29,492 bases of DNA from Baffinella frigidus (Eukaryota > Cryptophyceae > Cryptomonadales > Baffinellaceae), in assembly GCA_026770585.1 (NCBI GenBank), contig MU646356.1, forward strand, positions 195,597-225,088, read 5' to 3'. Shown here in pieces: positions 2,187-26,380 of the stretch. Positions within the stretch are counted from its first letter, which is position 1. Each line of letters opens with the position of its first letter. The notes below the pieces were generated by a model. The model was not told the DNA's origin and ran no database searches. It saw only the letters and a program-made list of their open reading frames with translations. The translations under genes were made by a program, and so were the position numbers.

Positions 2187-2690
2187 TGGCCAGCATGTAG
2201 TGCAAGATTCCCGCCTTGAAGGAACGTCTTATGTTGAAGCCAAAACATGTGGAACCGACCTACACAGAAACGTTTCGTTCGCCGTACAATATCCAATAAC
2301 GCTGCAATAGCTCCAATAGCACCTTGGGGCGCCCCAGCCGCTCAAGCGCATCACGTATTTTTGCGAAGATTTGCGTGTGTTGCGAATCAAATCTAACATG
2401 GCCACCCTGTATTGGTGAATTCCCGCCTTCAAGGAGCGCCTGATGTTGGAGTCAAACCTTCTGGGACCGACCAGCACAGAAACGTGTGGGCAGCCGTACA
2501 ATATCCGATCAAGCTCCAATAGCTCCAACAGCACCTGGGGGCGCCCCAGCCGCTCAAGCGCATCAAGTATTTTTGGCGAGGATGCGCGTGTGTTGCGAAT
2601 CAAACCCAACATGACCACTGTGTATTGGTGCATTCCGGTCTTCAAGGGTCGCCTTATGTTGGAGACAAACAACATGTGGAATCGACCTTG
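2187..2690. repeat. 213-bp tandem repeat carrying copies of the exon 8 donor junction
   Basis: Two full copies and one partial copy with a 213-bp period (2187-2399, 2400-2612, 2613-2690). On the minus strand each contains a copy of the 3' end of DUF1295 exon 8 plus its GT (echoes near 2320-2347 and 2533-2560). The authentic exon end is at 2687. Because 213 is a multiple of three, a minus-strand frame stays open across the copies and gives a false impression of a 71-residue repeat protein. Confidence 0.85.
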
Positions 2691-2772
2691 GGGCGGCCCA
2701 GGCGCTCCAGCGCTCGGTTTCCCTCCATGTAGGAGAAGAGCTGGTTGTCGGCCACGCGCCCCAGCGCAATTC
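2687..2772 (-). CDS. DUF1295 gene exon 8 (last one visible)
   Basis: Acceptor TGCGAGCAG, donor CCCAAG|GTCGAT. 86 nt encode IALGRVADNQLFSYMEGNRA followed by LERLGRPK. The ADxQLxxFxxxN pattern matches the family. The next block (PNLDxGLW...HPNYFGE type) was not found downstream in the window. Confidence 0.87.
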
Positions 2773-5643
2773 CTGCTCGCACGCCGCAGAGTCGAGATTG
2801 GTAGTGGCATTGAGGACAAGTGGAGAGAGGTCGTAAGATTCTGGAGACCACAAATCACGCGGGGTAGCGTGGAAGCGCGTCGTGTCACGGTGGCACGCGC
2901 CCCCCCAGCGCAATGTCTGCACGCCGCAGAGTCGAGTGATGTCGTGGCGTTCAGTGGGCCAAGCTAGGCCCCTAGCGTGGCCCACTGAAAAACTGTATCA
3001 CGAGGAGCCGCCTAAACACTTGTAGCGCGAACCAGTGCGCATGAAAAAGCCACTTCTGCCCTGGCGCGGCTCCCGTCACCGATAATATCTCAAATTTGGC
3101 TTGGCGTGGGAGCCATTTCGTACAATGCCTGCTCGCCGCAGCGTGGAGAGAGGTTGGCATTCAGGAGAAGTGGAGAGAGGTCGTGGCATTCCGGAGACCA
3201 CGAATCACGCGGGGCTGGGTGGAAGCGCGCTGTGCCATGGTGACATTCAGCACCTCGTCCTATCAAACCAACATGAAACATCGCTATGTAGCACATAATC
3301 CACAGGCGTTTTCACAATGCAGAACGCTTGTGACCCTAAAACCTGAACCCCCAAACACTTCAACCCCAAACCCCCAACCCCCACACCTAAACCCTATACC
3401 CCAAACCCTAAACCCTACAACGAGGAGGACGGGGACCAGCGAGGCAGGCAGCGACCGCGAGCGAGTCGAGGAGGGTCCAGGGAAGGGTGGAGAAGGCGGC
3501 GGAGAAGAGGGGCAGCGAGATCCCGACGAGCATTGGCTGCCGGACACAGCGAGTCGACGTCGGGGTTAGCCCGGCCACAGCAACTCAACGTCACGGGTAG
3601 CGAGATCCCGATCACCATTGGCGGCCCGGACACAGCGAATCGCTGTGTCGTCAGATCGGGTGTGTGCTTCCCTCCTACGTGCGGACCAGGGATCCGGCTC
3701 AACGACAGGTTTGATGCTTGCTACGTAACGTAAGCAAGAAGGGGTGCCTGGTGCGTTGAACCGACCCGGCCTTGCACGCTGAGAGTCGTGGGCTGAAACT
3801 AGCAGACCGACATCGACGATGCGCATCGTCGGGGGAAAGCTCATGCACTGCATCCAATGAAACACACCCGAATGTGAAATCGACTAGTTACGAACGTGAG
3901 TGGACGAGAGAGGTTGCCTGCAGTGAGAGGCAGTGCGGGTTGAGGTCCTCCGGTAGCACCCTACGAAATGCCGGAATTAGGTGGACGCTGGAATTAGGGC
4001 GTCCACCCTTTGAACGAGAGAGGTTGCGAATCGGTACCAACACACCCGGCCTTGAACACACCCGGCCTCGAAACTGACTAGCTACGAGTTTGAAACTGAC
4101 TAGCTACGAGTTTGATAAACTGACTAGCTACGCGTTTGAGACACTGACTAGCTACGCGTTTGAGAAGTGCACGGGAAAGGTTGCTTGCTGTGCGAGGCAG
4201 TGCAGGTTGAGGTCCAAATTCCGAGTTGGGTAGCACCCTACGGAATGCCGGAAATAGGCGGACGCCGGAACTAGGGCGCCCTAAGCCCGTAACCCTAAAC
4301 CCTAAACGAGAGACCCTAAACCCTAAACCCTTAACGAGAGAGGTTGCCTGCTGTGCGAGGCCGACTGCGAAGAAGGAGAGTAGCCACCAGCTCCTGCCCA
4401 TTAGGGTTTCGAGTTGAGGGTTTGGGGTTTGGGGTTTGGAGTTTGGGGTTTGGGGTTTGGGGTTTGGGGTTCAGGGTTTAGGGTTTAGGGTTTGGGGGTT
4501 AGGCTTTAGGGTTTGGGGGTTAGGGCTTGGTGTTTAGGATTTAGGGTTTGGGTTTGGGGTTTGGGGTTTGGGGTTTAGGGTTTGGGGTTTAGGGTTCAGG
4601 GTTTAGGGTTCAGGGATTAGGGTTTAGGGTTTAGGGTTTAGGGTTTAGGGTTTAGGGTTTAGGGTTTAGGGTTTAGGGTTTATGGTTTAGGGTTTAGGGT
4701 TTAGGTTTTAGGGTTTAGGGTTTAGGGTTGAAGTTTCAGGGTTTAGGGTTTAGGGTTTAGCAAAAAACGACAAGCCGAGGTCAGCAAGAATGATGCAGAA
4801 GTGGGTGTGAGATTCCGGAGGTGTCGATGCGGCGGAAGCAGTCAGTTGCTCGAGCCCCACTGGGCTCAGAGTTTGGATTTAGCGCTTACGTTTAAGGTGT
4901 AGGGTTTGGGGCGAGGGGAGCGTAGGGTTTGGGGTGAGGGAAGAAGACCTGGGGAAGTCGCGCGACATTTTTTCGTATCTCCAGTCTTGCCTCTCCCCGA
5001 ACCTGCGCGCAGGCCAGCGTCAGATGAGGCAGAGACGAGGCACCTCATGTATTCAGCGGAATCACGACGACCACAGAATCGCTCAACAAATTTAAATCAT
5101 GGGGAGTAAAGGAAGGATGCAATGAGGAGGAGTAAAGGACGGATGTGCACCTCCAGCGTTCCCGCCGGAAGTAGGAATACGTCAGACCCGCCGACCACAG
5201 TACCACCAGGCCCTGCCACCGCCTCGTACAGCTTATCATTAACCCACAACCTAAGCCCGACACGTGACCCCTGATTGACTAGCTTGCACGGGCACGGGCA
5301 CACACGCACGTCTTCTACCCTTGCAAGTAACTGGAATCCGAAGCGGAACACCACCAATCATGTCCTGGCTATGTAGAGACTCTACAAACCCAGCCGCAGG
5401 GACAGACAGGGGATGTGCTGAGTATGTAGAGATTCAATGTTTAGATGCTGGTGAAGAAATGTTTATGCAGACCGCGGCTGAGAGGGTTGGGGGCAGTACC
5501 GAGGCGGCAAGGAGACGCGGCGGCATAGGCTGGATCGTGCGGGGGTGGCAGGAGACGAAGAGAGCGATCATCGGAGGGATCAACGTCCAGTATGGATCGA
5601 TGAGCCAGAAGCTGCGACGGGGTGCATGTCAGCCACGGAAAAC

Positions 5644-26069: not shown

Positions 26070-26084
26070 CTGAATACGGTTTAA

Positions 26085-26380
26085 GGTTTGGGGTTTGGGG
26101 TTTAGGGATGAGGGTTCAGGGTCTAGAGGAGACGATCTGACGCCCACCGCAGCTCCCCGTCCCCTGCTTGTCGTTGAGGGGTGAGGGTTGAGGGTTGAGG
26201 GCTGAGGGTTGAGGGTTGAGGGTTGAAGGTTGAGGGCTGAGGGTTGAGGGTTGAGGGTTGAAGGTTGAGGGCTGAAGGTTGAGGGTTGAGGGTTTAGAGT
26301 TCAGGATTTAGGGTTCAGGGTTCAGGGTTCAGGGTTCAGGGTTTAGGTTGTTTAGGGTTTAGGGTTCAGGGTTTAGGGTA
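26085..26380. repeat. GGGTTGA / GGGTTCA / GGGTTTA arrays
   Basis: Block-wise variants in the intron before X1. An acceptor-side echo of exon X1 is embedded at 26124-26168 (minus strand AAGCAG|GGGACGGGGAGCTGCG). Confidence 0.93.

Follow-up and report, generated by a model that had tools for sequence, protein, structure and literature searches.

Ordered copies of exon ends in Baffinella frigidus introns: the mark of intact exons on a general process of local duplication

In the nuclear genome of the cryptophyte Baffinella frigidus, a stretch of 29,492 bp (positions 195597-225088 of one contig, hereafter the window) contains introns in which diverged pieces of the neighbouring exons recur. We call these pieces echoes. 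An earlier note on this DNA had remarked that copies of an exon's 5' end lie upstream of it and copies of its 3' end downstream, and had read this order as a sign that introns grow by repeated short tandem duplications straddling a splice junction. The locus thus raises the questions of whether the echoes are real, whether their order holds elsewhere in the 382-Mb assembly (1364 contigs), and which process could produce it. The duplication pattern is real, and our best reading of it is a general process in which insertions duplicate their target, the order of the copies being imposed because exons have to stay intact.

The exons of an L-type lectin gene (L) and of a DUF1295 gene (D) were searched against the window after masking with Tandem Repeats Finder (TRF; arrays of period ≤21 bp masked), at a threshold of 26 bits. 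Fourteen echo matches were found within 2 kb, 59-512 bp from their exon, on 10 of the 26 exons: L4, L5 (three), L6 (both ends), L7, L8, L8b, L11, L13 (two), D7 and D8. Three further matches beyond 2 kb were all of L5. The genes and the near echoes are as follows.

6919-16325, + strand: L-type lectin gene, 14 exons, splicing to one open frame that ends in a stop.
6919-7388, 7524-7575, 7703-7777, 8064-8170, 8851-8937, 10215-10353, 11346-11507, + strand: lectin exons 1-7.
11956-12027, 13244-13362, 13894-14008, 14392-14433, 14759-14807, 15463-15589, 16196-16325, + strand: the remaining seven lectin exons, in order.
6760 to 172, - strand: DUF1295 gene, 12 exons, the last one found possibly not terminal.
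8243-8290, + strand: echo of the L4 3' end (exon positions 60-107 of 107), 87.5% identical, donor GT lost.
9020-9062, + strand: first echo of the L5 3' end, 84%, with GT.
9228-9271, + strand: second echo of the L5 3' end, 80%, with GT.
9449-9477, + strand: third echo of the L5 3' end, 86%, with GT.
9952-10028, + strand: echo of the L6 5' end, 83%, with AG and one internal stop codon.
10496-10573, + strand: echo of the L6 3' part (exon positions 53-130 of 139), 90%.
10369-10495: repeat lying between L6 and the downstream echo, which it abuts at its right end; an inverted second copy (76%) lies at 12464-12589.
11134-11154, + strand: echo of the L7 5' end, 21 bp, 90%.
11218-11252/11324-11358: second L7 copy, from the self-comparison of the window.
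12112-12170, + strand: echo of the L8 3' end, 97%, with GT.
13006-13051, + strand: echo of the L8b 5' end, 83%, with AG.
14932-14980, + strand: full copy of L11, 90%, with donor, acceptor AG lost in that register.
15914-15957, + strand: outer echo of the L13 5' end, 95%, with AG.
16037-16091, + strand: inner echo of the L13 5' end, 93%, with AG.
3595-3621, - strand: echo of the D7 5' end, 85%, AG lost.
2323-2349, - strand: echo of the D8 3' end, 89%, with GT, within a tandem array at 2207-2687 (212-bp unit, 2.3 copies).

All 14 near echoes were in direct orientation. The partial copies of 5' ends lay upstream and those of 3' ends downstream, and the whole copy of L11 lay downstream. The splice dinucleotide was retained in most cases, AG in 5 of the 7 copies that reach an acceptor and GT in 6 of the 7 that reach a donor. 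As a control for chance, three other loci were Markov-shuffled, and no local pair appeared in them. The echoes reported earlier for L5 (three), L6 and L8 were borne out, as was the second copy of L7; those of L4, L8b and L11 are additional. The exon then counted as the twelfth may correspond to L11 or L13, both of which have echoes, and for DUF1295 exons 6-8 the claim stood for D7 and D8, D6 being weak (28-bp pairs only, absent from the exon search).

We then considered coding segments outside the window, anchored by Pfam matches to chaperonins and kinases. Thirty-five segments were examined; some come from overlapping loci but represent different exons, and 11 kinase stretches were picked from 108 matches for their closely spaced exons, not for echoes. 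A direct echo was found in 16 of the 35, across ten other contigs, so the pattern extends beyond the window. Since hidden Markov model matches are not whole exons, the exon end assigned in these loci is the nearer one. When the window and the outside loci were pooled, echoes were present at 26 of 61 coding segments, with 38 partial copies and one full copy (L11). All 38 partial echoes, which represent 29 exon ends, were direct and on the predicted side, and none was inverted. Exon ends, nearest echoes and echo-bearing introns were compiled by hand.

Is this order specific to exons? We compared the coding segments with 488 random noncoding segments matched to them in length and locus. A direct local copy was found for 152 of these, a frequency not far from that of the coding segments (p = 0.08); control segments may hold unannotated exons. 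Among the partial direct matches of the control, which are not independent of one another, 175 were concordant with the side rule and 150 discordant, and 78 matches were inverted; side concordance differed between coding segments and control with p = 5e-10. Noncoding segments thus have local copies without side preference, meaning that the duplication process is general and not exon-specific. A mechanism peculiar to exons as the source of the order is rejected on this control, and a reading of the order as pointing to a process directed at splice junctions was not supported. The self-comparison of the window (direct duplications of at least 36 bits with a gap of at most 1 kb) gave a consistent picture: local direct duplication covered 523 of 2698 unmasked exon bases (19%), 2884 of 9223 intron bases (31%) and 2997 of 11741 other bases (26%). 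Direct matches more than 3 kb apart covered 0-4%.

The order follows from the exons themselves. When a segment A-B becomes A-B-A-B and B has to remain attached to what is left of its exon, the extra copy falls on the intron side; the side rule is thus forced by exon integrity. The order of the echoes therefore reflects exons being kept intact and says nothing of how the copies are made, and it is also expected from plain tandem duplication.

As to the copying process, we propose that the nuclear genome has received short inserts, in most cases some 50-250 bp long; these would be hairpin repeats, fragments of dispersed repeats, array DNA and filler of unassigned origin. Each insertion would leave about 20-100 bp of target sequence duplicated, one direct copy to either side of the spacer, probably through repair of a staggered break in which both overhangs are filled in and the filler is captured between them. 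If the duplication spans a splice junction, one copy would stay with the remainder of the exon and keep the splice signal. The intron would take up the insert, and the second copy would persist in it as an echo, in many cases carrying a decoy AG or GT and presumably without function. We consider this insertion at staggered breaks with target duplication, the order being set by exon integrity, to be the best explanation, and give it a little over even weight.

The spacing of the copies bears directly on this proposal. Of 20 genome stretches drawn at random, 17 were all N and three were usable (L009, L011 and L021); the tables of noncoding pairs leave aside L001-L008 (L001 being the window), the all-N stretches and the overlapping loci L034-L038. 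In 106 kb of usable sequence we counted 133 local direct pairs. Seven of them touch or overlap and none is separated by 1-10 bp; the gap measures 11-50 bp in 13, 51-200 bp in 86, 201-500 bp in 21 and more than that in 6. None of the 20 pairs at least 94% identical had a gap of 10 bp or less. In a recount without masking, such small gaps occurred in 10 of 102 pairs, and in none of the 12 pairs at 94% or above. In the same loci TRF reported 105 adjacent arrays of period 15 bp or more. Eighteen of them, whose periods do not exceed 28 bp, were at least 94% alike, and none of the 21 arrays with a period of 36 bp or more reached that level. Young copies with units longer than about 35 bp are thus separated.

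These counts also bear on a rival process, plain tandem duplication (slippage, unequal exchange or simple fill-in) in which the copies then decay rapidly and arrays or elements insert between them. The tandem unit at D8 is of this kind, the L13 unit repeats together with its filler, and the 7 touching or overlapping pairs and the 18 young adjacent arrays, with units of 15-28 bp, fit it as well. The difficulty is that the longer-unit pairs at 94-100% identity (0 of 20 pairs; 0 of the 21 longer-period arrays) are not adjacent despite little time for decay. We regard this explanation as unlikely, with a chance large enough to be kept in mind. The TRF arrays indicate that short-unit tandem duplication proceeds alongside the separated kind, and the earlier description of the units as tandem is valid for short units and inexact beyond about 28 bp, where the copies mostly lie apart. 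The young adjacent arrays, found in the window, L009, L021, L045, L047 and others (18 arrays in 20 loci), form a second kind of local duplication.

The strong locality of the pairs, 107 of the 133 having gaps of 51-500 bp, would suit another process, repair-mediated duplication, in which a proximal segment is copied and pasted into another break. Primate genomes are reported to provide a precedent that includes exons and splice sites (PMC2671141). In its simple form this process is rejected, as unconstrained insertion would be expected to put roughly half of the copies of exon ends on the wrong side and we found none of 38 there. It is an improbable account of the echoes.

What lies between the copies was informative in two cases, the only ones for which the origin of the spacer was searched genome-wide. 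The clearest is a noncoding one.

20788-20834/20906-20952: two 47-bp copies, 100% identical, around a dispersed repeat at about 20836-20905.

The 70-bp repeat lies 1 bp from each copy and occurs in at least 39 other places at 97-99% identity. Among the 40 other places listed, 38 consist of the spacer plus at most 7 flanking bases; the other two are partial exceptions, running 20 and 28 bases into a flank. In the second case (L049, 2479-2801), a 94-bp echo of a kinase exon, the spacer is a second dispersed repeat with at least 39 other places at 83-88%; the matches listed mostly begin within the first copy, 3 bp from its end, and stop 23-32 bp short of the second. In both pairs, therefore, the insert is shared with other sites and the flanks are not. 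Another piece of the 70-bp repeat lies between different 35-bp copies in L041. Over seven repeat families, 10 of the 12 copies with duplicated flanks lie no more than 7 bp from the duplication on one side or both; the ends of one copy were taken from the spacer itself, and a second listing of two window inserts, under L001, is dropped from the count. Insertion of a miniature inverted-repeat transposable element is expected to give a short target duplication and no long duplication at the element ends; for long duplications the families compared here gave a mixed picture. RNA-derived filler was rejected: all Rfam matches obtained across the window and six loci were of hairpin type and fell short of the gathering scores. 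Palindromic repeat families occur at 9654-9813, 25009-25150, 16341-16448 and 16796-16921, and also in other loci. A dispersed repeat of about 210 bp lies at 22461-22672, most of its 40 matches listed being 86-93% identical.

Several observations weigh against insertion at staggered breaks. The genome-wide search just described covers two pairs. Flanking duplications are missing from two of the four distinct copies of the 70-bp repeat (those in L002 and L007). Among eight copies of the 210-bp repeat none shows a long duplication near its ends, short matches lying 149-361 bp from three of them, and the number of copies with flanking duplication is 0 to 4 per repeat family among 2 to 11 rows. The idea that all repeats make long duplications is rejected on account of the many copies that lack them. 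Short units tell in the same direction: 18 of 84 TRF arrays of period 15-35 bp are at least 94% alike (12 of 44 at 15-21 bp and 6 of 40 at 22-35 bp), and short-unit adjacency is understated in the pair count because arrays of up to 21 bp were masked before it. Self-BLAST may also drop pairs less than about 50 bp apart, understating it further.

A further objection concerns the breakpoints. Ten of the 11 nearest echoes of the window reach the splice junction, and the exon part of all 11 is 21-78 bp long. In 7 of the 10 that reach the junction, ungapped homology ends within 5 bp on the intron side; homology covers a median of 48 bp of exon and 4.5 bp of intron. Such homology bounded at the junction is unexpected, as random breakpoints do not predict this clustering. 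For the other three echoes, those of L5 and L11 enter heptamer arrays and that of L13 continues for at least 36 bp; with gaps allowed, intron-side homology reaches about 20 bp for D7 and 12 bp for L7. Selection against complete decoy splice sites, intron decay on both copies, or breaks at the junction could each give this result. The last would mean that breaks coupled to splicing or transcription at the exon-intron junction copy the exon flank, which would agree with the junction-bounded homology and with the slight excess of echoes in coding segments over controls. Against it, the DNA outside the lectin and DUF1295 genes is just as dense in duplications, introns decay on both copies, and L047 and L045 provide young pairs that, judged by eye, continue into the intron with indels. 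We give coupled breakage a small chance.

The last objection comes from the coding positions. Mismatches between exon and echo at the three codon positions were 10/176, 11/176 and 38/175 in the window and 14/195, 15/198 and 39/201 elsewhere (loci from L029-L049), so that third positions account for 77 of the 127 mismatches. Base composition or CpG as the source of this excess was not supported. The ratio of nonsynonymous to synonymous differences (pN/pS) was 0.22 (95% 0.15-0.32) for 28 echoes, one of them without a whole codon; L031, whose segment runs past a stop, is in the codon-position count and absent from the pN/pS set. When neutral echoes were simulated with an exon accepting synonymous changes only, mean pN/pS was 0.39-0.53 and none of 1200 runs reached 0.225; with a threefold faster exon rate, the simulated value was 0.21. 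The low ratio may thus reflect either faster silent change in exons, constraint on the echoes, or copying from a diverged allele.

If the echoes were in use, as alternative or spare exon ends under coding constraint, a low ratio would follow, and some copies are indeed whole or nearly whole exons (L11; the copies at 23448 and 23662). Against such use, the echoes contain stops (4 in 417 codons) and gaps, partial copies are unable to replace an exon, the public lectin model is without echoes, and a threefold faster synonymous rate in exons would yield the same pN/pS. We therefore think use of the echoes quite improbable. The splice redundancy, decoy splicing and exon birth suggested earlier were not supported, the public Baffinella lectin model being covered by the exons alone. 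Whole or near-whole exon copies (L11 at 14932-14980 and the nuclease-like segment at 23448-23760) are candidates for mutually exclusive exons. A combined explanation, in which junction-coupled breakage duplicates exon ends bounded at the splice signal and the copies are temporarily constrained as spare or alternative exon ends, would, if true, explain both the stop of homology at the junction and the synonymous bias; we consider it doubtful. An assembly artefact has virtually no weight, since most copies are diverged with a codon-position signature and occur on many contigs. The copies are old and real.

Two other claims concerned the introns. Growth of introns by these duplications is partly upheld: the eight introns that hold an echo have a median length of 843 bp, compared with 386 bp for 16 others (p = 2e-5; hand-classed), and a long intron also offers more room for an echo. 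The telomere-like arrays, described earlier as often carried by the duplicated unit, are not a regular part of it and are not enriched between exon and echo (7 of 29 spacers hold one, against 386 of 1721 control intervals, or 22%). Heptamer arrays make up 12.7% of all bases in the 106 kb and 9.3% of spacer bases. On these counts the array as part of the unit is rejected, and insertion of telomeric repeats at breaks is not supported. In the window the heptamer arrays, of telomere-like type, lie at 1-96, 4401-4760, 8600-8835, 14018-15897 and other places, each with its own variant (CCCTAAA, CCATAAA, CCCTCAA, AAACACC, AACCAGA).

The gene models used here both splice to conserved proteins. The lectin gene matches Lectin_legB above the cut-off (46.6 bits) and Lectin_L-type_dom below it (62.8 bits), and the DUF1295 gene matches PF06966 above the cut-off (45 bits). 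Two public Baffinella frigidus proteins match the window exons exon by exon, at or near 100%. Exon D6 has a GC donor at 4347-4348 (CAG|GCAACC), giving a GC-AG intron. The public DUF1295 protein model (P0052) departs from the conserved frame after the third exon, and the 12-exon model gives the conserved protein. The third gene, nuclease-like, has a weak match only (XRN_N, 13.6 bits against a cut-off of 22.9, E = 0.045) and was kept out of the exon analysis, so that two of the three genes were rebuilt. Of the copies claimed for this gene, those around its exon X5 were recovered, three being located. A search of the phage collection gave no match.

23448-23760, - strand: nuclease-like, exon-like segment, duplicated; 99-bp copies, 95% identical, flank a palindromic repeat.
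23448-23546, 23662-23760 and 23874-23953: copies around nuclease X5, from the self-comparison.

If about four in ten coding segments have a recognisable fragmentary copy next to them, local duplication and insertion have left a natural archive in this genome, in which the exon is a fixed reference showing which side is which. The echoes offer a direct route to intron lengthening, to the tolerance of inserts near exon edges and to the handling of decoy splice sites. They are also a warning for gene finders, as the public DUF1295 model misreads its gene.

No description of the exon-end echo pattern was found among the open-licence literature matches listed. A rice study of break repair reportedly describes a 'patch-mediated' mode, which we group with fill-in tandem duplications. 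Intron gain by tandem genomic duplication creates a new intron between two copies of exonic AGGT; unlike this, the spare copy in Baffinella lies inside the intron, away from the next exon. Both leave exon copies in the intron (PMC4974935, PMC2891723). Fill-in of broken ends can produce small tandem duplications (Schimmel et al. 2021, PMC8355091); they share with our copies the direct duplication of the break flank, whereas most Baffinella copies enclose other DNA and seem very dense, judged from Baffinella alone. Among the repair-mediated duplications or 'doublets' of primates (Pace et al. 2009, PMC2671141) are some that take in exons and splice sites; like ours, they are short and closely linked. 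The primate copies lie at a separate break, whereas the side rule in Baffinella fits copies that bracket an insert; the 824 closely linked cases of the human set and our 133 pairs in 106 kb are not directly comparable, as the pipelines differ. Introners have flanking repeats of 3-9 bp (PMC9860276) and likewise tie the insertion of short repeats to intron evolution, but the exon parts in Baffinella are 21-78 bp long and it is existing introns that grow. The R9 retroelements of rotifers have an exceptionally long target-site duplication, according to a title in the reference list of PMC7943196, and thus resemble our case in the long duplication around the insert; R9 is by its title specific to rDNA, whereas the Baffinella inserts are varied and no coding sequence was noticed in them. 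Cryptophyte genomes are large and repeat-rich (PMC12220804), and it is in such a genome that insertion with target duplication, ordered by intact exons, is our best reading of the echoes.

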